DNA of 58,087 nucleotides from a virus (IMGVR_UViG_3300008629_000005:1-58087), one strand, 5' to 3'; shown: positions 13,211 to 47,692, counted from the first letter of the stretch. A program made the numbers and translations. Notes: generated by a model not told the origin, from the sequence alone.

Positions 13211-13218
13211 CATAAATA
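13211..13218 (+). promoter_or_regulatory. Late promoter box (CATAAATA), leaderless start of gp20
   Basis: Box, then ATATT, then ATG of gp20 at 13224. The sequence through -1 matches the extended T4 late consensus closely. Predicted +1 is the A of the start codon. Confidence 0.7.
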
Positions 13219-13223
13219 ATATT

Positions 13224-14759
13224 ATGGAATTATTTGGGTTTGAAATAACTCGGAAGAAAGACGAGTTACGAGTCAAGGAAACACAAACGGCAAAATCGTT
13301 TGTGCCTCCTATTGACGATGATGGCACTCCAGTCATTCAACAACAAGCTGGATATATATCTGGCGGAGCATATGGTGCTTATGTTGATATGGAAGGTGGT
13401 ATCAAGAATGAGGCTGAGCTCATTCGAAGATACAGAGAGACATCATTAGTTCCCGAATGTGACTCAGCAATAGAAGATATAGTTAATGAGTGTATTACTT
13501 CTGATACTTCGGATAGAATAGTTGCACTCGACCTCCGAGATGTCAAACTCTCGGACAGCATCAAGAACAAGATGCAAGACGAGTTTGCACACATCTTATC
13601 CCTAATGAAGTTCAATTCGAACTCTCATGAAATTTTCAGAAAGTGGTATGTTGACGGCAGGATTTATTTCCATAAAGTCGTTGATACTAAACGCCCAAAA
13701 CTAGGTATCGTAGATTTAAGGAACATTGACCCTCTTAAAATTAAGAAGGTTAGAAATGTCGAAAAGGGTAAAGACCCAAAGACGAAGATAGAACGAGTAG
13801 AGAAAGTCGAAGAGTTCTATGTCTTTAACGACAAAGGTTTTGATAAGACATCTGCAATGGAAGGTTCAACCGTTAAGATTGCACCTGAAGCAGTAACTTA
13901 CACAACCAGTGGATTACTAGACTACACAAGGAATGTAGTCATAGGTTATCTACACAAGGCATTGAAGACTGCAAACCAGTTAGCAATGATGGAAGATGCA
14001 CTTGTTATCTATAGGATTTCAAGGGCTCCTGAGAGGAGAATCTTCTACATTGATGTTGGTAACTTGCCAAAAGCAAAGGCAGAACAATACCTTACAGATG
14101 TTATGCACAAGTATAGAAATAAACTCGTGTATAATGCAGAGACAGGTGAAATCAAGGACGATAGAAAACACATGTCAATGCTAGAGGACTTTTGGTTGCC
14201 TCGGAGAGAAGGTGGTAGAGGAACAGAGATTACCACATTGCCAGGCGGTCAAAACCTTGCAGACATAGATGATATTGAATACTTCAAGAAGAAGTTATAT
14301 CAATCTTTAAATGTGCCTGCAACGAGAATGGAAGCAGATAACGGATTCAATATGGGTCGTGCTTCTGAAATCTCAAGAGATGAACTTAAATTTAATAAGT
14401 TCACAAACAGACTTCAAAAGAAGTTTGCAAGAATTTTTACAGATGTCCTTAAGACACATTTGGTTCTTAAGGAAATTGTAACTGGTGAAGAGTTTGATAA
14501 AGTCAAAGACTTCATACAGTTTGATTTTGCGACTGACAACCACTTTACAGAGTTGAAAGAAGCAGAAATTTTAAGAGAGAGATTAGATACTCTTTCAACC
14601 ATAGGAGACTATGTTGGTAAATACTACTCTAATGAGTACATTAGAAAGTATGTGTTAAGACAAACCGAAGAGGATATTAAACTCATCGACAAACAAATTG
14701 CCAGTGAAGGTGAAGCGGAAGGCGGTGACGATAGTTCTCAAGATGACGGGGGATGGTAA
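13224..14759 (+). CDS. gp20: Portal protein gp20
   Basis: 511 residues (T4: 524). Recognised by AELIRRYRETSLVPECDSAI near residue 63, the RISRAPERRIFYIDVGNLPK core near 265 and RMEADNGFNMGRASEISRDE near 370, the stretch much used as a marker for T4-like myoviruses. Dodecameric portal at the head vertex; nucleates prohead assembly and is the DNA channel. The start is fixed by the late box five bases upstream, with no ribosome-binding site. Stop overlaps the next start (TAATG). Confidence 0.96.
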   Translation: MELFGFEITRKKDELRVKETQTAKSFVPPIDDDGTPVIQQQAGYISGGAYGAYVDMEGGIKNEAELIRRYRETSLVPECDSAIEDIVNECITSDTSDRIVALDLRDVKLSDSIKNKMQDEFAHILSLMKFNSNSHEIFRKWYVDGRIYFHKVVDTKRPKLGIVDLRNIDPLKIKKVRNVEKGKDPKTKIERVEKVEEFYVFNDKGFDKTSAMEGSTVKIAPEAVTYTTSGLLDYTRNVVIGYLHKALKTANQLAMMEDALVIYRISRAPERRIFYIDVGNLPKAKAEQYLTDVMHKYRNKLVYNAETGEIKDDRKHMSMLEDFWLPRREGGRGTEITTLPGGQNLADIDDIEYFKKKLYQSLNVPATRMEADNGFNMGRASEISRDELKFNKFTNRLQKKFARIFTDVLKTHLVLKEIVTGEEFDKVKDFIQFDFATDNHFTELKEAEILRERLDTLSTIGDYVGKYYSNEYIRKYVLRQTEEDIKLIDKQIASEGEAEGGDDSSQDDGGW

Positions 14760-37989: not shown

Positions 37990-38010
37990 ATCTTATTTAC
38001 AAGAACTAAA

Positions 38011-38036
38011 AAGGAGGCTTCGGTCTCCTTTTTTTT
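38011..38036 (+). terminator. Rho-independent terminator before the curli-like operon
   Basis: Eight-base-pair stem (one G-U) around a TTCG loop, running into eight T. It isolates the small membrane genes from the operon that starts at 38091. Confidence 0.93.
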
Positions 38037-38077: not shown

Positions 38078-38085
38078 CATAAATA
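38078..38085 (+). promoter_or_regulatory. Late promoter box (CATAAATA) of the curli-cyclase operon, leaderless
   Basis: Box, ATGGT, ATG at 38091. Placed right after a terminator, so it is the likely main promoter of the genes up to 45106. Confidence 0.7.
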
Positions 38086-38090
38086 ATGGT

Positions 38091-38384
38091 ATGGATATAT
38101 TAACATTTTTGAGTGAAGTGGGCATTCCTATAGGAAGTGCAGTGATTATGGCCTTCTTTATATTCCTGACTTTGAAGTATATTTTAGAGTCAGTGGTAGG
38201 ACAAGTAAAAGGATTGGCTGGTATTATGGAATCTTTAGAGAATCGTGTTCGAATGATGAACAATGATATGATTAAGATTGACTTATTGGTTTCTTCGGCT
38301 TTAGATTTAAAGCCAGACATTGATAGAATTGCTCGTGCAGAGAATTTTATAGAAGATGAGAAGATAGATTCTCGTAGGGACTAA
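38091..38384 (+). CDS. Membrane/coiled-coil protein A of the curli-like operon
   Basis: 97 residues. Hydrophobic segment about 12-32 (GSAVIMAFFIFLTLKYIL), then a helical coiled-coil region with RVRMMNNDMIKIDLL near 63. It is paralogous to the next gene: both have TM segment, 25-residue linker, R-RM--ND-I--- core. First gene of the operon with its start at the predicted late +1. The form resembles BhlA/holin-type small proteins; it may aid export or lysis. Stop/start overlap of one base with the next gene. Confidence 0.7.
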   Translation: MDILTFLSEVGIPIGSAVIMAFFIFLTLKYILESVVGQVKGLAGIMESLENRVRMMNNDMIKIDLLVSSALDLKPDIDRIARAENFIEDEKIDSRRD

Positions 38385-38662
38385 TGAATACCATAGCTCA
38401 GATGATTGCAGAATTCGGTTTTCCCGTGGTTCTCGCACTGGGCATGGGGTATTTTATATTTTTTGTGTGGAAATTTGTCACACAAGAACTAAAACCTGCT
38501 CTAGGAAAATCTAATACAATCCTTATAAGACTTCTTGACCAAATTAGAATGTTAGATAACGACTTGATTCGTTTACAGCAGAAGGTTAACACAGTGCTAG
38601 AATATAAGGAACAGCAAGAACAAGAGGAAAAGAATGTCAGTAATAAAAAAAGTCGTAAGTAG
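38384..38662 (+). CDS. Membrane/coiled-coil protein B, paralogue of A
   Basis: 92 residues. Membrane segment about 13-33 (VVLALGMGYFIFFVWKFV) followed by QIRMLDNDLIRLQQKV, closely parallel to the preceding gene, and a Lys/Glu-rich tail. Overlaps the CsgF-like gene by 29 bp. The duplicated pair suggests a heteromeric membrane assembly serving the downstream secretion genes, or a lysis pair; inference only. Confidence 0.7.
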   Translation: MNTIAQMIAEFGFPVVLALGMGYFIFFVWKFVTQELKPALGKSNTILIRLLDQIRMLDNDLIRLQQKVNTVLEYKEQQEQEEKNVSNKKSRK

Positions 38663-39170
38663 CATTATCATTGTAGGGGTTTTATTTCTACATGCAACGA
38701 ATGTTTACGCAGATGAGATTGTTCATAAATTTGGAAATCCATCGTTTAGTAAACAGGGTCAGGGTGCTCATTATTTAACTATCGAGAATCAGGAATTTTC
38801 TCGGAAGAAACAAATCGAAGATGCTTTGGAGTCAGCTAGGAAAGCTGCAGAAAGAGAAGCAGACAATACGGTTCTTGCAAAATTTATTAGAAACTTAGAA
38901 AGCAGAATTTATGCTACACTTGCAAAACAGTTAGTTGAATCTATGTTCTCAAATGATAATTCAAGTTCATTTGGTTCATTTATTCTAGAAGGAAACACTA
39001 TTACTTGGGAAGTATTAACAGATGAAGCAGGGGTTGAGTTCATACGAATGACCATTATAGGTGAAGACGGAACATCAACCATTATTGAAATACCTATAGG
39101 AACTGGTAATTTTGCACAAGACCCTGACGCGATTCCTGTCGATGGCGGGGGTGGCGACGGAGGAACCTAA
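38634..39170 (+). CDS. csgF: CsgF-like curli assembly protein
   Basis: 178 residues with a Sec signal peptide ending at VYA|DE. Mature N-terminus VHKFGNPSFSKQGQGAHYL resembles the CsgF start (F-NPSFGG-----LL), which in E. coli inserts into the CsgG pore; the central helix (AKQLVESMF region) and the beta-rich end (WEVLTDEAGVEFIRMTI, then GTSTIIEIP) correspond to the rest of CsgF. Longer than E. coli CsgF (138 aa), with a charged helical insertion at about 45-85 and a Gly-rich tail. Immediately followed by CsgG, as in curli operons. GAGGAAA precedes the ATG. Confidence 0.8.
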   Translation: MSVIKKVVSSIIIVGVLFLHATNVYADEIVHKFGNPSFSKQGQGAHYLTIENQEFSRKKQIEDALESARKAAEREADNTVLAKFIRNLESRIYATLAKQLVESMFSNDNSSSFGSFILEGNTITWEVLTDEAGVEFIRMTIIGEDGTSTIIEIPIGTGNFAQDPDAIPVDGGGGDGGT

Positions 39171-40099
39171 TGATTAAGGTTCTTTCATTAGCATTACTTT
39201 TAGTATTGAGTAGCTGTGCTTCAATTCCTAAGTGGACAGACGACCCACAAAATTGTGGTCGCTGGGACGAAGGGTTTAAGAAAGATGTATACACTGGGGT
39301 AAAGAAACAGTTTGCACGAAAATATATTTGTGTGGAAGACCCCGAAGTAGTAAGACTACCCTCATTTCTTGAACTATTAAGATTACCACCAGCAGAAGAG
39401 ATGCCAGTAGTTGCAGTTTATCAGTTCTTAGATAAGACTGGACAGAGGAAGTCCGTAGACAACATTGCAAGCTTCTCTACTGCAGTGACCCAAGGTGGAC
39501 AAGAAATGGTCATAGACGCTCTTAAAACGGCTGGAAATGGTACTTGGTTTAGGGTAGTAGAACGAAGTGGTATAGACCACTTAGTTAGAGAAAGGCAGAT
39601 TATTAGGTCTGCAAGAACAGAATTTGCTAAGGCTGAAGGTAAAGACGAAGCCGAAGGAATACAACCACTACTCTTTGCGGGTATGATAATAGAGGGTGGA
39701 GTAATTGGTTATGATACCAATATAAGAACAGGTGGACGAGGCGCACGGACACTAGGTATTGGTTATAGTAAACGATATCGTCAAGATGTCGTGACCATTT
39801 CAATAAGAGCTGTATCAGTTCTTACTGGAGAGGTTTTATTAAATGTCCAAACTCGAAAGACTATATTGAGTTATGGAACGGGAGGCGATGTTTTCCGTTT
39901 CGTAGAACAAGGAACTCAATTAATAGAGATAGAGGATGGCATTGGAAATAATGAGTCAGTGACTTACGCAGTGCGAACAGCTATTGAAGCTGGAGTGCTG
40001 GAATTAGTATACCAAGGACACGAAAGAGGTTTTTGGAACATAACGGGGTATGACGAAAAGTTCCCCGAGGGGTATAACGAAAATGAAGAAACTAATTAG
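39170..40099 (+). CDS. csgG: CsgG-like curli secretion channel lipoprotein
   Basis: 309 residues (E. coli: 277). Lipobox LSSC with Cys16. Matching stretches to CsgG include PVVAVYQFLDKTGQRK near 84, FSTAVTQGGQEMVIDALK, WFRVVERSGIDHLVRERQII, the transmembrane-hairpin regions GVIGYDTNIRTGGRGARTLG and VVTISIRAVSVLTGEVLL, then TRKTILSYGTGGDVFRF and a C-terminal GVLELVYQGHERGFW. It would form the nonameric outer-membrane pore for curlin export. Stop of CsgF-like gene overlaps its start. The N-terminal insertion (about 20-75) is extra. Confidence 0.95.
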   Translation: MIKVLSLALLLVLSSCASIPKWTDDPQNCGRWDEGFKKDVYTGVKKQFARKYICVEDPEVVRLPSFLELLRLPPAEEMPVVAVYQFLDKTGQRKSVDNIASFSTAVTQGGQEMVIDALKTAGNGTWFRVVERSGIDHLVRERQIIRSARTEFAKAEGKDEAEGIQPLLFAGMIIEGGVIGYDTNIRTGGRGARTLGIGYSKRYRQDVVTISIRAVSVLTGEVLLNVQTRKTILSYGTGGDVFRFVEQGTQLIEIEDGIGNNESVTYAVRTAIEAGVLELVYQGHERGFWNITGYDEKFPEGYNENEETN

Positions 40100-40829
40100 T
40101 TTATTAGGAGCAATATTATTATTGGCTTCGCCTATCGTTTTCGGAGCAGCCACTGATGACAATGAAATTAAGATTACCCAAACGGGTGATACATTAAAAA
40201 TATACATTGACCAAATAGGTTTTGGTAATAAGATAGGTGGTAACGATGGTTCCAGCGGAAGCATAACCGCCATGCTTATTACAGGACAAACTTTGGAGTT
40301 CGATTTAGACTTTACTGGTAATCAGAATGTCTTATTCGGGCCCGTTGTTGCAGACAGTTCGAAATATACATTAACCTTCACAGGTGATTCGAACAAGATA
40401 GACTGGAACATTGGTAATGTAGGGTCAGCAGATGCTACTGATTATCTTTTCACTGTTCAAGGAGATTCAAACATCTTTGACATTGACCAAGGATATGGTT
40501 TAGGAGCAGAAAGATTAAATGCAGATTTAGTCTTAGTGGGTTCTTCGAATGTATTTGATTTGGATTTTGAATCCGATGATGTTGTTTGGAACTGGGATAT
40601 AACTGGTGACTCAAATAATGTTAATACATTACAGAAAGATGGTGCAAACGAAATGACGGTTGAATTAACAGGAGATAGTGCAGATGTGGATATCAATCAG
40701 ATATCAGGAACATGTGTAAGTGGAGCTGGAAACAGTTGTGCAACTCCAAATGCTTTAATTACATTAGATATAACAAGTGATAATGCAGTTATTCAAATCA
40801 ATCAGAAAGACGCAGCTAACGATTCTTAA
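40083..40829 (+). CDS. Curlin-like secreted repeat protein 1
   Basis: 248 residues. Signal peptide ending around FGA|AT, then about eight imperfect 22-28 residue repeats built around [TQ]GDSN-[IV]-[IV]-Q, for example ITQTGDTLKIYIDQ, TGDSNKIDW, QGDSNIFDIDQ, TGDSADVDINQ. The Gly/Asn/Gln spacing imitates CsgA/CsgB curlin repeats (Q-G--N-A---Q), but Asp replaces much of the Ser/Ala. One Cys pair near the end. Start at 40083 lies 17 bp within CsgG. Likely substrate of the CsgG-like pore forming an amyloid-type beta solenoid. Confidence 0.75.
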   Translation: MKKLISLLGAILLLASPIVFGAATDDNEIKITQTGDTLKIYIDQIGFGNKIGGNDGSSGSITAMLITGQTLEFDLDFTGNQNVLFGPVVADSSKYTLTFTGDSNKIDWNIGNVGSADATDYLFTVQGDSNIFDIDQGYGLGAERLNADLVLVGSSNVFDLDFESDDVVWNWDITGDSNNVNTLQKDGANEMTVELTGDSADVDINQISGTCVSGAGNSCATPNALITLDITSDNAVIQINQKDAANDS

Positions 40830-41925
40830 TATATTGTTATTCAGTGGGGTCGCATTTGCAGACCCCATTGGAGACATTGTTGAGTCTACTGGTATAGGCC
40901 AGATAGTTAGAAACAATGAAGTGCAACAGAATAATGTCGGTGGTGACATTTTTTTGTATGACGAAGCCGAAACAGTAAACGGCAGAATGAAGATTGAGTT
41001 CTTAGACGAAGAGGAACTTGATTTAATCGAACACACAGTAGTATACATAGACGAAGTATACTATGACCCTAATCCCTCATTATCAAAAATGTCCTTGAGA
41101 ATGGTTCAAGGAACAGCAAGGTTTGCTTCAGGGAAAGGGAAAAAAATAAAGAAAGCAAACATAGATATTTCAACGCCGACAGCTCAAATAGCAATCAACG
41201 GCACAGATTTTACAACTACTATTGACGAGCTCGGGAGAACACTCGTGATTCTGCTACCTGATGAAACAGGTGGTTCTAGTGGTGAGATAAAAGTATTTAA
41301 TGAGGGTGGAGAAACCTTACTCAATCTTCCATATCAGGCAACTATGGTTTCTACTTTGGAATCTCCTCCAACACAAAATGTTATTATTCAAAACATAACA
41401 CCTTCAATGATTGATAACATGTTTATTGTTTCTCCACCTGCGGAAGTTAAACAAGCAATAGAAGACGCTGTCGCTGACGACCAAAATGACGATACTGGAA
41501 TACTAGATGTAGACTTTTTAGAGTTCAATGATTTAGAGTCAGACGAACTCGAAGATACCATGGAAGATGATTTCACTGAGCTTGATATAGATATGCTTGG
41601 AGTTGACTTCTTGACAGATTTATTAGATGTGGTAGAAGCACTAGATAAAAAGATTAAAGGGTCAGGCTCAACTGGTGGTGGAGCAACCCTAGGACAATTC
41701 AATATTAAAGGTGCAGTCCAAGGATTCAATAAAGACTCACAGTTTAATGTATTTGTCCAAGACGGAGACCTATATCTCTATAGAGATGTGAATGGAAAGA
41801 TTGAGATAATCATTGCAGCTGGAGGTTTAGGATACTTAGATTTAACTTTAGACGGGTATGAAGGGATTATTGATTTCGGTCAAGGAGACACCAATATTGA
41901 AATTGTAATCAGGCAAACTAACTAA
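40783..41925 (+). CDS. FecR-domain secreted protein with curlin-like C-terminus
   Basis: 380 residues. Signal peptide ending VAFA|DP, then a FecR-type domain: MVQGTARFASGKGKKIKKANI, ISTPTAQIAINGTDFTTTID (the xIRGTxF-type strand) and LVILLPDETGG. The middle (about 225-285) is acidic; the C-terminus GFNKDSQFNVFVQDGDL and QGDTNIEIVIRQ looks like curlin repeats. FecR-domain proteins often occur beside CHASE2 cyclases in bacteria, and such a cyclase ends this operon. Overlaps curlin-like 1 by 47 bp. Probably a periplasmic or surface sensor/anchor. Confidence 0.78.
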   Translation: MQLFKSIRKTQLTILNILLFSGVAFADPIGDIVESTGIGQIVRNNEVQQNNVGGDIFLYDEAETVNGRMKIEFLDEEELDLIEHTVVYIDEVYYDPNPSLSKMSLRMVQGTARFASGKGKKIKKANIDISTPTAQIAINGTDFTTTIDELGRTLVILLPDETGGSSGEIKVFNEGGETLLNLPYQATMVSTLESPPTQNVIIQNITPSMIDNMFIVSPPAEVKQAIEDAVADDQNDDTGILDVDFLEFNDLESDELEDTMEDDFTELDIDMLGVDFLTDLLDVVEALDKKIKGSGSTGGGATLGQFNIKGAVQGFNKDSQFNVFVQDGDLYLYRDVNGKIEIIIAAGGLGYLDLTLDGYEGIIDFGQGDTNIEIVIRQTN

Positions 41926-41928
41926 ATA
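41921..41928 (+). promoter_or_regulatory. Possible internal late box ACTAAATA
   Basis: Overlaps the FecR-gene stop, about 20 bp before a small gene with TTAGGAG. Could boost the second half of the operon. Confidence 0.4.
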
Positions 41929-41947
41929 AAAGACATTAGGAGTAAAT

Positions 41948-42097
41948 ATGAAATATTTAAAGGACTTTTTAGAATGGCACGAAAGACTTTGTTGGAAGTT
42001 TATCGATAGATTCAACCTTACAGATTACCAAGCACTTTGGATAGCATGGGCTGAAGGTGTAATTCTTGTTTTACTTGTTTGGTGGATTTGTGGGTGA
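41948..42097 (+). CDS. Small membrane protein, 49 aa
   Basis: TTAGGAG seven bases before ATG. Sequence is aromatic and basic at first (WHERLCWKFIDRF) and ends with one membrane segment (AEGVILVLLVWWICG). Its TGA overlaps the GTG start of the next gene (GTGA), suggesting coupled translation with curlin-like 2. No family recognised. Confidence 0.65.
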   Translation: MKYLKDFLEWHERLCWKFIDRFNLTDYQALWIAWAEGVILVLLVWWICG

Positions 42098-42954
42098 AAC
42101 AAACTGAGGGAAAATTGGACTGGTCAGCAAAATTATTCATAGGGTGTTTTACACTCATGGTGTTATTTTCAGCAATTAAAGCATTTGCTGATGATGATAA
42201 CCGTATCAATATTAATCAGGTCACAGCGGGTGGAGATAATCTCGACCTAACTATCGACCAAGAAGGATTCAACAACAATATCTTTTTCTCACTTGGAGAC
42301 GGAGACGATTACGATATAGAAATCTTACAAAAAGGAAACAATAATGAAATTGGATACGCAAATGATTCCCCCAGCTGGGGCTCAGGTTATGGTTGGGGTG
42401 GCGATATTGACGGAGAAAGACAATCACTTAAACTCTACCAAAACTGCACGAAAAATTCGTCCTGCGGTAAAAACGACATTCAGTTCCACATAGCATATGG
42501 AGATGACAATACACTTTGGTGGGCCCAAGGATATGAATTCTCAAACCGTAACGACACTACATGGTCAATAGATAATAATGACGGCGGTAATCATACTGTC
42601 ACCATAGATATCCATGGTAGTGATAATTCAATAAAAGGACAGCAAAGGAATTGTGCAAACAATAATTGTGACGGACATTCAGCAAGAATCTATCTCTATG
42701 GAGATGACAATGATGTGTTTGGAAAACAGAAAGGAGACAGTTCAAAGACATTAAACTTAACAGTTCATAATGACTCTAATATTGTTGACTATCTTCAAGA
42801 CGGTAATGCTCAACATACTGCAAATATTACTTTGAATGGTACTTATGGAACTACTTTAGATTTAACGCAACACGCAGGCTCAGCTCAGTCATATACTTTG
42901 TCTCAAGCTTGTTATACAGTCGGCGGTTGCACAATTACAGTAACACAAGATTAA
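42094..42954 (+). CDS. Curlin-like secreted repeat protein 2
   Basis: 286 residues from the GTG at 42094 that overlaps the previous stop; an in-frame TTG at 42079 is less likely. N-terminal membrane/signal segment (LFIGCFTLMVLFSAI) ending AFA|DD, then Asn/Asp/Gly-rich repeats such as INQVTAGGDNLDLTIDQ, ILQKGNNNEIGYA, YGDDNTLWW, HGSDNSIKGQQ and YGDDNDVFGKQ. Curlin-like Q-G--N spacing is clearer here than in protein 1, with four Cys pairs or so. Two curlin-type subunits recall CsgA/CsgB (major fibre and nucleator). Confidence 0.78.
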   Translation: MKQTEGKLDWSAKLFIGCFTLMVLFSAIKAFADDDNRININQVTAGGDNLDLTIDQEGFNNNIFFSLGDGDDYDIEILQKGNNNEIGYANDSPSWGSGYGWGGDIDGERQSLKLYQNCTKNSSCGKNDIQFHIAYGDDNTLWWAQGYEFSNRNDTTWSIDNNDGGNHTVTIDIHGSDNSIKGQQRNCANNNCDGHSARIYLYGDDNDVFGKQKGDSSKTLNLTVHNDSNIVDYLQDGNAQHTANITLNGTYGTTLDLTQHAGSAQSYTLSQACYTVGGCTITVTQD

Positions 42955-42957
42955 ATT

Positions 42958-43065
42958 ATGTGGGATAAAATAATAAATTATAAATTTCATATCAAATGGG
43001 TTTTTATAGTATTAGGAACCTTATTGGTTGGATTAGCACTGTCGTTTTATCGACTGGTCTCCTAA
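42958..43065 (+). CDS. Tiny membrane protein, 35 aa
   Basis: Starts three bases after the curlin-like 2 stop. Basic N-terminus (YKFHIKW) and one membrane segment (VFIVLGTLLVGLALSFY). TAATG overlap with the next gene supports that it is translated. Too short to classify. Confidence 0.5.
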   Translation: MWDKIINYKFHIKWVFIVLGTLLVGLALSFYRLVS

Positions 43066-43229
43066 TGAAACAATGGTTGTTTAATAAGATGGTTCCGCAC
43101 GCCATCAGGTTCAGGGAATGGTCTAAAGGAAAAACTTGGATACAGATTCCCTTATGGATTTTTATATTGTGGCTTTTAGGAGTAGCTAATCCTTACTGGT
43201 GTGTATATCCAGTTTGTTGGATAACATAA
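43065..43229 (+). CDS. Small membrane protein, 54 aa
   Basis: ATG at 43065 overlaps the preceding stop; its own stop overlaps the cyclase start (TAATG again). Basic N-terminal half (NKMVPHAIRFREWSKGK) and one hydrophobic segment rich in Trp with two Cys (IPLWIFILWLLGVANPYWC). May be a partner of the cyclase or exporter. Confidence 0.55.
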   Translation: MKQWLFNKMVPHAIRFREWSKGKTWIQIPLWIFILWLLGVANPYWCVYPVCWIT

Positions 43230-45106
43230 TGTACTCGTGGAAGACAGTATTAATAACTGTCTCGTTATTATTCGGACTTAAGGTATGGAATCCATATCTT
43301 ATTGAGAATGTTACATGGTCTTGGTTTGACTTCCTACACCAATCAAAAGAAATAGAACAAACCGATAACATAGTTCTAGTAGACATAGACGAGAAGTCAC
43401 TACAGAAGTATGGTCAATACCCATGGCCGAGAAATATCTATGCAGATATAATGTTGGAATCACATTATACCAACACTCATGTATTTACCCAGTTGTTTAA
43501 AAACCCTGATAGGTTTTCAGGGGACGAAGCTTTTGCAGAAGGATTAGTTAATCGGCTATCGATTTTATCAGCTGCACCCACAACTCAATTAGATACTGGG
43601 TCTGCACCATTTGTTAAGACTTCGGTGTTCGGTGACGGCGAGATAAAAGACCATATTTGGAGCTTCTCTGGCATTGCTTCACCAGTTGATATCCTGAAAC
43701 AGAATTCGTATGGTTCAGGAGTGACAGTCACAACACCTAGTATTTCAGGAACACCAAACTTTGACGGGACAATCCGTTCAGCACCATTAATAGTATCTGC
43801 AAATGATGTTGTATATCCTTCGGTTGCACTAGAGGTTCTTCGTGCATTTGGTGACCATAAGAATTATCAAACACGAGTCACGGAAGAAGCTGGAATCGAG
43901 TGGATTCGAATGGGTAGGAGCCCTCCCATAGAAACAACCTCAACTGCAGATGTTCAAATTGGATACTGGTTCGATTTTGAGAGAATATCTGCAATGGATT
44001 TACCCAACTCAGACCTTGAAGGTAAGATACTGATTTGGGGATTAACTGCAGAGGGACTTAATAATCCAGTTTCAACCCCAGTGGGTGTAATGTATCCTCA
44101 TAAAGTTCAAGCCTCACTTCTCCAAACCGTTTTGCAAGATGTTCGAATACAACAATCCTACTATCTTGAATTCTTATCTCTCGCTCTTCTGCTGACAGTC
44201 CTTCTAGGAATATTGGTAATGGTCTACACACTTCCCACAGCCGTTGCGGGGATAGCTTCTCTAGTCTTCGTTGGATTTCAGGTGGGTGGGTCTCTCTATT
44301 GGTGGTCTTCATCTCTCGTTCTTTTCGATACTTTCTACTCATCGATTGCCTCCATTATAGTTTTCGGACATGCTTCCTTCAACAAATACTATACAACTTA
44401 TCAACTCAAAGAACTTATTAAGAAGCAGTTTCAAAAATATTTATCTCCTGACATGGTTGAAGAACTCCAAAAAAACCCTGAATTATTGAAACTTGGTGGA
44501 GATAGAAGAGAACTTTCATTCCTCTTCGCAGACATAGTTGGGTTCACTCCAATATCAGAAGCATACATGAAGAATGACGACCCCGAAGGATTAGTGGAAC
44601 TAATTAATAGATTCCTAGACGGTATGTCTAAAATTGTCCTAGCAAATGGTGGAACCATCGACAAATATATGGGTGACTGCTTGATGGCATTTTGGGGAGC
44701 TCCTCTTGATTGCCCTGACCATGCACAAATGGCTTTGAAATCTGCAATAGAAATAGAACTATTAACAGAACAAATGAATATAGATATAGAAAGGGAAGGA
44801 TTAGATTTACCACCAGTAGTCATTGGCACGGGAATTAATACAGGCCCATGCATTGTCGGAAACATGGGAAGTGAAGCACGATTCGATTATTCAGTTGTCG
44901 GTGACGCTGTTAACCTTGCAGCTAGACTCGAAGTCCAAACAAGGCAATATGACACTCCAATTATAATGTCAGAGTTCACAAAGAAACAAGTTGATTGTGA
45001 ATGGCAGTATCTTGACGAAATAAATGTTAAAGGAAAGGAAATTCCAGTTAAGATATATGCACCTTTAATTGATAGGAAATTAAGAAAATTACAAAAACCC
45101 TCTTGA
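43229..45106 (+). CDS. CHASE2-domain class III adenylate cyclase
   Basis: 625 residues, complete. N-terminal membrane helix, then a periplasmic CHASE2 sensor domain (about 25-305; NIVLVDIDEKSLQKYGQYPWPR is typical), three membrane helices (about 310-395) and a C-terminal cyclase domain. Catalytic residues intact: metal Asp435 (FADIVGFT) and Asp483 (KYMGDC), adenine-selective Lys479 and Asp559 (VVGDAVNLAARLE), transition-state Asn562 and Arg566. Predicted to make cAMP in the host cytoplasm in response to an envelope signal. Unusual in a phage. Starts within the previous stop. Confidence 0.93.
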   Translation: MYSWKTVLITVSLLFGLKVWNPYLIENVTWSWFDFLHQSKEIEQTDNIVLVDIDEKSLQKYGQYPWPRNIYADIMLESHYTNTHVFTQLFKNPDRFSGDEAFAEGLVNRLSILSAAPTTQLDTGSAPFVKTSVFGDGEIKDHIWSFSGIASPVDILKQNSYGSGVTVTTPSISGTPNFDGTIRSAPLIVSANDVVYPSVALEVLRAFGDHKNYQTRVTEEAGIEWIRMGRSPPIETTSTADVQIGYWFDFERISAMDLPNSDLEGKILIWGLTAEGLNNPVSTPVGVMYPHKVQASLLQTVLQDVRIQQSYYLEFLSLALLLTVLLGILVMVYTLPTAVAGIASLVFVGFQVGGSLYWWSSSLVLFDTFYSSIASIIVFGHASFNKYYTTYQLKELIKKQFQKYLSPDMVEELQKNPELLKLGGDRRELSFLFADIVGFTPISEAYMKNDDPEGLVELINRFLDGMSKIVLANGGTIDKYMGDCLMAFWGAPLDCPDHAQMALKSAIEIELLTEQMNIDIEREGLDLPPVVIGTGINTGPCIVGNMGSEARFDYSVVGDAVNLAARLEVQTRQYDTPIIMSEFTKKQVDCEWQYLDEINVKGKEIPVKIYAPLIDRKLRKLQKPS

Positions 45107-45144: not shown

Positions 45145-45152
45145 TATAAATA
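45145..45152 (+). promoter_or_regulatory. Late promoter TATAAATA of hsp20
   Basis: Perfect consensus; predicted +1 about 45158. The leader contains a GTAAT/ATTAC hairpin (45160-45179) like those of gp18 and gp22, then AAAGGAG before ATG 45214. Confidence 0.72.
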
Positions 45153-45213: not shown

Positions 45214-45624
45214 ATGACGCATTTAGATATATTTGGTCAATTCAGACCGTTCGCAATAGGATTTGATAGATATTTCGAAGACCTCGAAAGAATGTCTACA
45301 ATCTCACAATCAAACTATCCACCATACAATGTGGTAAAAGTAGACGATGAAAATTTCACCGTTGAACTTGCTGTTGCTGGATTCGATAAGAAGGAAATTT
45401 CTGTTACTAAAGAGAAAAACATTCTTGTTATCGAGGGTAGTTCAGAAGATTCTGAGAAGGACTTTGTCCATAAAGGATTAGCTTCTAGAGCATTCAACCG
45501 TAGATTTACACTTGCAGACGATGTAGAAATCGCCAGTGCAGTGTATAAAAACGGTATATTGAGTGTCAACTTAGAGAGAGTCATTCCCGAAGAAGACAAA
45601 CCAGTTTCTATCAAAATTTCATAG
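45214..45624 (+). CDS. hsp20: Small heat-shock protein (Hsp20)
   Basis: 136 residues. Alpha-crystallin domain: YNVVKVDDENFTVELAVAGF near residue 38, KNILVIEGSSED, ASRAFNRRFTLADDVEIASA and the signature YKNGILSVNLER near 109, ending with a KPVSIKI tail. ATP-independent chaperone, common in marine T4-like phages and probably useful in capsid or scaffold folding. Dual early and late promoters and a strong AAAGGAG site suggest high expression. Confidence 0.94.
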   Translation: MTHLDIFGQFRPFAIGFDRYFEDLERMSTISQSNYPPYNVVKVDDENFTVELAVAGFDKKEISVTKEKNILVIEGSSEDSEKDFVHKGLASRAFNRRFTLADDVEIASAVYKNGILSVNLERVIPEEDKPVSIKIS

Positions 45625-45638
45625 AAACCCACTATACA

Positions 45639-45671
45639 GATACCACTGTTATGTGATATAATGGTGGTATC
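45639..45671 (+). promoter_or_regulatory. Inverted repeat flanking a -10 box, possible operator
   Basis: GATACCAC (45639-45646) and GTGGTATC (45664-45671) are perfect inverted arms around TATAAT at 45657-45662. The loop is 17 nt. May be an operator or RNA hairpin regulating the gene at 45691 and ahpC-like gene. Confidence 0.45.
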
Positions 45672-45690
45672 ATTTTATTATGGAGTAATT

Positions 45691-45885
45691 ATGAAAAAAG
45701 AAGAGGGCATACAAGAGTGTGCAAAAAATGACAGAGTCGCAATAGAAGCAGACCTAAACAAATATCTTAATGATTTGACAGATAGAGAAATGATTAAGTT
45801 ATGTAATACTATAGCAAGTCAAGGTGGGACTAGAACACTCTCCACTTACGATTATAGTTGGAATCCTTTAAGGGAGATGTTATGA
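45691..45885 (+). CDS. Unknown small protein, 64 aa
   Basis: The ATG at 45691 with TGGAG upstream is preferred to an in-frame ATG at 45661, which lies inside the promoter/operator. Charged helical protein (DRVAIEADLNKYLNDLTDREM) with a YDYSWNPLREML end. Its TGA overlaps the peroxiredoxin start (ATGA), so the two are co-translated. No family recognised. Confidence 0.65.
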   Translation: MKKEEGIQECAKNDRVAIEADLNKYLNDLTDREMIKLCNTIASQGGTRTLSTYDYSWNPLREML

Positions 45886-46391
45886 AAACAGTAGGTGAAC
45901 AATTCCCCGACTTCTCATTAGAGGGGATTAATAAGTTTAATGAATTTGTGACAGCAGACAATGACTGGCTTCAAGGTTGGTCAGTGGTTTACTTTTATCC
46001 AAAAGACTTTACTTTTATCTGTCCAACAGAGATTGCTGGATTTGATGCATTGGTAGACGCGGGTGTATCAGTTATCGGTATCAGTGGTGATAACGAGTTT
46101 TGTAAATTAGCATGGAAACAAGATAATGAGTTGATAGGTAATATTCAACATACGCTTGCAGCTGACACTGGACTTAGATTATCAAGCGACCTTGGTGTGG
46201 TAGATATAGAAAATGGTGTATGCTATAGAGCAACATTTATTATCGACCCTGATGGAGTAATCCAACATGCATCAAGCAATGCATTAGACACTGGTAGAAA
46301 CCCACAAGAAGTTCTAAGAACTGTAAGGGCACTACAAGCTGGTGGACTAACTGGTTGTGCATGGAACGAAGGCGAGGACTTCGTTGGATAG
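45882..46391 (+). CDS. Peroxiredoxin (AhpC/typical 2-Cys type)
   Basis: 169 residues. Peroxidatic Cys47 in YPKDFTFICPTEIAGFD with the TxxC pattern, and a C-terminal Cys159 (LTGCAWNEGEDF) in the place of the resolving Cys. RATFIIDPDGVIQHAS matches the strand after the active site. Reduces hydrogen peroxide or organic peroxides; in a phage it may protect against oxidative burst during infection. No AhpF-like partner is visible, so host thioredoxin or glutathione would be the reductant. Confidence 0.92.
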   Translation: MKTVGEQFPDFSLEGINKFNEFVTADNDWLQGWSVVYFYPKDFTFICPTEIAGFDALVDAGVSVIGISGDNEFCKLAWKQDNELIGNIQHTLAADTGLRLSSDLGVVDIENGVCYRATFIIDPDGVIQHASSNALDTGRNPQEVLRTVRALQAGGLTGCAWNEGEDFVG

Positions 46392-46401
46392 TAAAACCCT
46401 C

Positions 46402-46430
46402 TAGTCAAATCTCGCTAAATATAATATAAT
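46402..46430 (+). promoter_or_regulatory. Sigma-70-type promoter of the methyltransferase gene
   Basis: TAGTCA, 17-bp spacer, TATAAT (46425-46430). The same CCCTCTAGTCAAA context recurs at 53287-53299 before the ParB-like gene. Confidence 0.55.
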
Positions 46431-46450
46431 ATGTTTAGTGGGATTTTTTT
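46408..46450 (+). terminator. Terminator-like hairpin with U-run directly before the methyltransferase ATG
   Basis: Twelve-pair stem including two G-U pairs (46408-46419 with 46434-46445), 14-nt AT loop containing the -10 box, then seven T to 46450. It would end upstream transcription, while RNA started at the promoter within the loop escapes it. Confidence 0.6.
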
Positions 46451-47692
46451 ATGAACGAATATTTTAGATATAGATTATCAGACCTTGAAGAAGGTGCTTC
46501 AACAAAGAAGTTTAATTATATAACTTTCTTTGCTGGCGGAGGCGGTTCTTCATGTGCATACAAACTCTTAGGTGGAGATTGTAAATACATGAATGAATTT
46601 CAACAACTTCATGTTGATACCTACCTTTTAAATTTCCCAAACACAGTTCACGAATGTAAAGACATTAAAAAAGTTACTGGTAAAGATATCATGGAACTTA
46701 GTGGACTAGGAGTTGGTGAAATAGATATTCTAGATGCAAGTCCACCTTGTCCGCCATTTTCAATGGCTGGATCAAAACGAGAAGGTTGGAACAAAGAGAA
46801 GATTGCATATGGAATGAAGCAAGAAAACATTGAAGATTTAACTTGGGAAGTAATTAGAATTACTGGTGAACTCCAACCCAAGATTGTTATTTGTGAAAAT
46901 GTAAAAGGTCTTACAATGGACTATGCAAGAGACCATTTGAATAGAATGATTACAGACTTTGAAGCACAAGGATATTCTGCAGTTTATAAAGTTATGAATG
47001 CAGCCCAACATGGAGTTCCACAAAAAAGAGAAAGAACATTTATACTTGCAGTTCGTAATGATGTATTAGATAAAATTGGAATGCCATGGATGGTTTTAGG
47101 AAGTGTATTTCCTGAACCTTCTCAAAAAGAATGGACTGTAAGAGATGCAATAGAAGACTTACAAGATGACGAACAAAACATAACCGATGCAAAATACCTA
47201 GAAGAATCTTTGAGACATTCTTCAAAGGCTCATTGGGTATTTGGATTTGATACTCACCCTGACTATCCCAACTCGGGCCCATGCTTAGGTATGAGGGGCA
47301 TAAATAATATGGAAAGGGTTGTTAGTATTGGAGACGATATCGTTGGCCCGTGGTTCAAAGAACAAATTGCAAGGGGTATCATTGACCCCGAAGATGAAAA
47401 ACATTCTTATTACATGTCAAGGATTGTACCTTGGACTCAAGCTGCACATTCATTAACTGAACAAGGGTGTCAACCAAAGTTTATGGGTGGTAATCATTTT
47501 CACCCCAGTGGAGAAAGGATATATACTCCAAAGGAATTACAAAGGATTATGACTCTTCCCGATGACTATAGGAGTACGGGAGATTATAACGACAAGGGTG
47601 CAAGAATAGGATTAATGGTCGCACCACTTTGTCTTAAGGCATTAGTTGAAAGTGTCTTAGAAAATATTTTGGAGAAGTATAATGTCAATTAG
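46451..47692 (+). CDS. DNA cytosine-C5 methyltransferase
   Basis: 413 residues with intact motifs: FAGGGGSSCAYK (I, near 27), DILDASPPCPPFSMAG (IV, catalytic Cys100), VICENVKG (VI, ENV near 149), GVPQKRERTFILAV (VIII, QxRxR), and the C-terminal RLMTLPDDY-like LQRIMTLPDDYR with a GLMVAP region (IX-X). Makes 5-methylcytosine in DNA. No restriction enzyme gene adjoins. The next gene, 11 bp overlapping, encodes a TET/JBP-like dioxygenase, suggesting further oxidation of the methyl group. Confidence 0.93.
   Translation: MNEYFRYRLSDLEEGASTKKFNYITFFAGGGGSSCAYKLLGGDCKYMNEFQQLHVDTYLLNFPNTVHECKDIKKVTGKDIMELSGLGVGEIDILDASPPCPPFSMAGSKREGWNKEKIAYGMKQENIEDLTWEVIRITGELQPKIVICENVKGLTMDYARDHLNRMITDFEAQGYSAVYKVMNAAQHGVPQKRERTFILAVRNDVLDKIGMPWMVLGSVFPEPSQKEWTVRDAIEDLQDDEQNITDAKYLEESLRHSSKAHWVFGFDTHPDYPNSGPCLGMRGINNMERVVSIGDDIVGPWFKEQIARGIIDPEDEKHSYYMSRIVPWTQAAHSLTEQGCQPKFMGGNHFHPSGERIYTPKELQRIMTLPDDYRSTGDYNDKGARIGLMVAPLCLKALVESVLENILEKYNVN

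Follow-up and report, generated by a model that had tools for sequence, protein, structure and literature searches.

An operon of eleven ORFs on one strand, at 38091–45106 of the window (the whole stretch of 58,087 nt analysed here, a 58 kb IMG/VR virus, G000), encodes a CsgG secretion pore with its CsgF accessory protein, two secreted curlin-repeat proteins, a FecR-domain protein, a CHASE2 class III adenylate cyclase and several small membrane proteins (Table 1). Most of the ORFs overlap (by 1–47 nt, with two gaps of 22 and 3 nt), and the single-operon reading of the initial annotation is upheld. We also recover the terminator and late-type promoter box that it had placed at the front boundary. 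The operon is real, intact and strongly conserved, and its kind has already been described; its late expression and its function are what we infer here. Our main reading, to which we give a probability of roughly 0.5, is that it represents a late-expressed phage type VIII (curli) secretion module, related closely to an alphaproteobacterial operon, that alters the surface of the infected cell. The phage itself has a T4-type large terminase, closest to that of Phage C48C1 (Kyanoviridae; 55%), with those of cyanomyophages next, and a 106 kb contig (L003) carries operon proteins identical to those of the window.

Table 1. Features of the operon and its boundaries; bit scores are followed by the curated Pfam cut-off
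Feature	Position	Strand	Remarks
Intrinsic terminator	38008..38033	+	Upstream of operon; 11-pair stem and T tract
Late promoter box CATAAATA, T4-type	38078..38085	+	5 nt before first ATG (small1)
small1, 97 aa	38091..38384	+	One TM, coiled coil-like tail; PHROG 18771, E 8e-27
small2, 92 aa	38384..38662	+	Divergent paralogue of small1; PHROG 18771, E 9e-30
CsgF-like secreted accessory protein	38634..39170	+	Signal peptide; CsgF 41.1 bits (25.8)
CsgG outer-membrane secretion pore lipoprotein	39170..40099	+	CsgG 172.1 bits (20.8); lipobox LSSC
Curlin-repeat secreted protein 1 (CsgA/B-like)	40083..40829	+	Curlin_rpt 21.8 bits (20.7); 5 IxIxQ motifs
FecR-domain secreted periplasmic protein	40783..41925	+	FecR 32.5 bits (24); separate C-terminal beta domain
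tm1, 49 aa membrane protein	41948..42097	+	Relatives at 10 phage loci
Curlin-repeat secreted protein 2	42094..42954	+	Curlin_rpt 21.1 bits (20.7); 7 IxIxQ motifs
tm2, 35 aa TM ORF	42958..43065	+	Relatives only in near-identical contig
tm3, 54 aa TM ORF	43065..43229	+	Relatives only in near-identical contig
CHASE2 class III adenylate cyclase, 625 aa	43229..45106	+	TM-CHASE2-3TM-cyclase; CHASE2 100.2 bits (26.3), Guanylate_cyc 65.6 bits (21.9)
Next late promoter box TATAAATA	45145..45152	+	Marks operon 3' boundary; HSP20 gene starts at 45214

Profile searches place CsgF, CsgG, both curlin-like proteins, FecR and the CHASE2 cyclase above their curated cut-offs, in line with the identities first proposed for them, and three starts are probably to be corrected (FecR to ATG 40783, the second curlin to GTG 42094, the cyclase to ATG 43229). 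The CsgG assignment of 39170–40099 is strong, with residues 61–295 matching solved E. coli CsgG structures in the PDB (E 9e-45), so that the lack of a match by which the initial annotation would have been refuted did not occur. The two curlin-repeat proteins score barely above the cut-off, which we count against the fibre explanation; their IxIxQ motifs are several times more numerous than in shuffled sequences, where 0.9 and 0.8 are found for the first and second protein, respectively. An AF2 model of the first, which like the FecR model below drew on sequences of the window and the collected loci and on none from the named phage records, is all-beta (pLDDT 79, pTM 0.74) and has no significant Foldseek match in the PDB, its nearest structures including beta-helices and, weakly, a CsgA. 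As in the E. coli curli system (csgBAC, csgDEFG), the window encodes a CsgG pore, CsgF and secreted curlin-repeat subunits; unlike that system it adds FecR and a CHASE2 cyclase, its curlins are longer and low-scoring, and neither the window nor three related contigs, themselves perhaps incomplete, gave a match to CsgE (PF10627). The CsgE periplasmic gate is not universal in curli systems. By its gene content, the operon belongs among type VIII (curli) systems, and its repeat proteins may form amyloid fibres.

The operon is conserved as a unit across phages. Among 97 CsgG loci from two viral-contig scans, supplemented with HTVC008M and Melnitz, all 31 with enough flanking sequence keep the order small1-small2-CsgF-CsgG-curlin 1-FecR-curlin 2-cyclase, and no other order was seen. 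FecR is present at 68/68 testable phage loci, the cyclase at 40/40 and the second curlin at 39/40, so that the secreted subunits and the sensor are retained together with the pore; as the loci were found via CsgG, these counts show that CsgG brings the others along, not the reverse. The co-occurrence of cyclase and csg genes in relatives, on which the initial annotation had staked its interpretation, thus holds wherever it can be tested. An operon of about 7 kb for secretion plus signalling that is kept across diverse marine phage lineages must pay its way.

The initial annotation was wrong, however, in taking the combination with a cyclase to be little known. The same module, HK-CsgF-CsgG-CsgA/B-FecR-CsgA/B-adenylate cyclase, has been published as a T8SS module of podo- and myo-pelagiphages (PMC9599517; mSystems 2022), its CsgF/CsgG part was also reported elsewhere (PMC7029224, 2020; PMC9004378, 2022), and it is present in the GenBank records of the cultured phages HTVC008M (I899_gp011–gp019) and Melnitz (genes 97–104), both of which have two small proteins, CsgF, CsgG, a curlin, a FecR-type protein, a second curlin and the cyclase. 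The window shares the published gene order from CsgF to cyclase; it differs in that its leading genes lack a kinase domain, and the paper does not name CHASE2. It is a divergent member of the group, with CsgG 50% and the cyclase 40% identical to those of HTVC008M, and its three tiny TM ORFs (tm1–tm3) are not found in HTVC008M or Melnitz. What is new beyond PMC9599517 is mostly the bacterial counterpart and the details of control (the late box). The Melnitz record (MZ577097, L028) has two curlin-repeat proteins, FecR and the cyclase annotated, contrary to the statement in PMC9004378 that this phage lacks csgA and csgB.

The leading genes small1 and small2 are paralogues of ~92–98 aa, each having a single TM segment and a tail that resembles a coiled coil, found at 81/82 and 82/82 phage loci, respectively. 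They occupy the position where PMC9599517 puts its histidine kinases, and are probably the genes so named there, a likeness by position that may reduce to a difference in naming. We reject histidine kinase as their identity: Pfam and NCBIfam HK profiles detect no kinase domain in either protein, small1 has no conserved His, and neither HisKA nor HATPase_c was found in the window or its three relatives.

A cellular counterpart of the module exists. On a 705 kb contig of Hyphomonas sp. TMED17 (L107), an FAA hydrolase gene upstream and a 2OG-Fe(II) oxygenase gene downstream enclose, in order, genes for CsgF, CsgG, a curlin-type protein of 504 aa, FecR and a CHASE2 cyclase, and two Caulobacteraceae genomes (L105, L106) have the same order with two curlins; all three are metagenome-assembled genomes (MAGs). 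These operons match the phage module in gene order and strand, and differ from it in the bacterial metabolic genes on their contigs, in the absence of small1 and small2, and in curlin length or number. As read from these assemblies, a bacterial CsgF-CsgG-curlin-FecR-CHASE2 cyclase operon is at odds with the statement in PMC9599517 that bacterial T8SS operons contain neither the cyclase nor the kinase, as far as the cyclase is concerned, and it offers a cellular setting in which the module can be studied. The other bacterial CsgG loci that we recovered have neither FecR nor cyclase, with flanks that are short in part of them. In the cyclase tree phages separate from bacteria (97/91); in the CsgG tree a bacterial pair (L105/L107) falls inside the phage group with weak support.

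Several other contigs assigned to bacteria carry curli genes and look like phage. Such contigs (L101–L104, L108–L110, L250, L251) occur in MAGs labelled Sphingobacteriales, Flavobacteriales, Planctomycetaceae, Rhodobacteraceae, Pelagibacter and others, a probable result of binning contamination; L101–L104, in which small1 and small2 are present and which resemble phage contigs drawn into MAGs by binning, were not counted as bacterial operons. An origin from a SAR11 chromosome was likewise rejected: of three CsgG contigs in Pelagibacteraceae-family genomes, one is a 3 kb fragment and the two readable ones carry phage genes (L250) or the phage-type small1/small2 module (L251). A very short 'phage' record (OR851715.1, Salmonella phage S.Kent 1-2-1, 1499 bases) whose match is a CsgG gene is probably a mislabelled host fragment.

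Late expression, also proposed at the outset, is suggested by the T4-type box in front of the operon, which is kept in relatives. All 17 occurrences of the motif [TC]ATAAATA in the window are on the + strand, with none on the - strand; when one mismatch is allowed, the motif shows no enrichment over shuffled sequence. It lies upstream of small1 in 63 of 71 non-identical loci, in 38 of them exactly 5 nt before the ATG; seven of the remaining eight have no box, and in the odd eighth, Melnitz, the box overlaps the start. HTVC008M has no box before small1. The T4 late box spans about -13 to -6, so that a 5-nt spacing would put the transcription start on the ATG or right beside it. Within the window only the gene at 13224 (box and start within 13211–13224) shares this spacing with that at 38091 (38078–38091), the other late boxes having longer leaders or lying inside genes, and these two genes are predicted, from spacing, to be possibly transcribed as leaderless late mRNAs.

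The FecR-domain protein and the cyclase would form the signalling half of the module. In an AF2 model (overall pLDDT 66) the FecR domain matches a PupR signalling domain (E 6.5e-4) and is followed by a stretch modelled with low confidence and then by a beta domain at the C terminus. A signal peptide-like segment runs straight into the FecR domain and there is no other TM; we found no N-terminal cytoplasmic anti-sigma part and no TM ahead of the periplasmic FecR domain. The protein thus appears to be secreted and, as it also lacks an anti-sigma part, the label of iron regulator is not supported. By predicted topology the FecR and CHASE2 domains are both periplasmic; among ordinary alphaproteobacterial CHASE2 cyclases, 3/29 adjoin a FecR-domain gene, which is divergently oriented. 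In most phages, and not in the Hyphomonas copy, the FecR protein ends in a curlin-like IxIxQxN strand (41888–41925 in the window), which might possibly serve for docking to the fibre.

The cyclase was said to have intact catalytic residues, and it does: metal (D435, D483), substrate (K479, S555) and N/R transition-state residues are all present and, a few substitutions aside, are kept across 57 phage copies. ATP is the likely substrate, judging from the K/S substrate pair and from the closest solved structures, which are those of adenylate cyclases. A cAMP output is therefore chemically plausible, as had been suggested, but in a SAR11-type host the product would lack a canonical reader, because 113 of 118 Pelagibacteraceae-family genomes, which may be incomplete, have no cNMP-binding domain (five have one). 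Searches of the window and of three longer contigs from related phages gave no such domain either. The argument is conditional, as the host of this phage may not be SAR11; where it applies, it counts against the signalling part of the fibre explanation and makes what reads the cAMP a concrete question. Only three of the 118 genomes have a class III cyclase match, and in two of these CsgG lies a few kb off, on contigs that look phage-derived.

How might these parts work together? The coat, aggregation and regulated-pore roles suggested for this operon had been proposed before (PMC7029224, PMC9004378, PMC9599517). Under our main reading, late transcription would be followed by passage of the curlin proteins through the host Sec system and their exit through CsgG/CsgF, so that the infected cell would acquire an amyloid-like surface material. 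Remaining in the periplasm, the FecR protein would report the state of secretion to the CHASE2 domain, through a contact that we infer, and the CHASE2 domain would switch cytoplasmic cAMP synthesis. What the phage would most likely gain is a late change in the infected cell surface, bringing cell–cell adhesion or the blocking of competing phages; if the module does coat or glue infected cells, encounters between the most abundant marine bacteria and their viruses would be affected. A variant that we consider improbable makes the same parts a checkpoint, with FecR sensing curlin secretion through CsgG and switching the cyclase, and a non-CRP target reading the cAMP so as to time late events (coating or lysis) in hosts without cAMP receptors.

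The module might instead time lysis, with the envelope permeabilised or primed late in infection by the CsgG pore together with the small TM/coiled-coil proteins, the cyclase acting as trigger or timer, and the curlins plugging or gating the pore. We think this rather unlikely: a simple pore needs neither two conserved secreted curlins nor CsgF nor FecR, the CsgG channel is ~1 nm wide, and small1 and small2 match no holin family. It would nonetheless fit the late box before the operon, and a podophage-like contig (L250) in which genes for an Rz-like spanin and an endolysin come after the module; a T4-type lysozyme also occurs in the sampled flanks of 18/37 loci, five times ~0.3 kb downstream of the cyclase, this proximity being a raw count from related genomes. 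A lysis role was proposed for Melnitz, whose infected cells showed no clumping (PMC9004378), an observation that we also hold against fibres.

The retention of curlins, FecR and cyclase in essentially all of the phages, with the cyclase active site kept, fits poorly with the idea that CsgG/CsgF open the outer membrane for import of nutrients or cofactors and that the other genes are passengers of a captured operon. Such an uptake pore has been suggested (PMC7029224, PMC9599517) and would accord with the failure to find the CsgE gate in the window or three related contigs, yet we give it little credence. Equally slight, in our view, is the chance that the cyclase mainly acts alone, as an ATP drain or as a signal to some other phage or host factor, from a merely incidental place in the curli operon; the lack of a detected cNMP-binding domain in most SAR11-family genomes and in the phages would suit it; in the phages as in three bacterial operons the genes strictly co-occur and keep their order, which speaks against it. 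Directly 3' of the operon, at 45214–47692, lie genes for HSP20, an AhpC/TSA peroxiredoxin and a C5 cytosine methylase, and an HSP20 gene is found near the cyclase in 22/37 loci.
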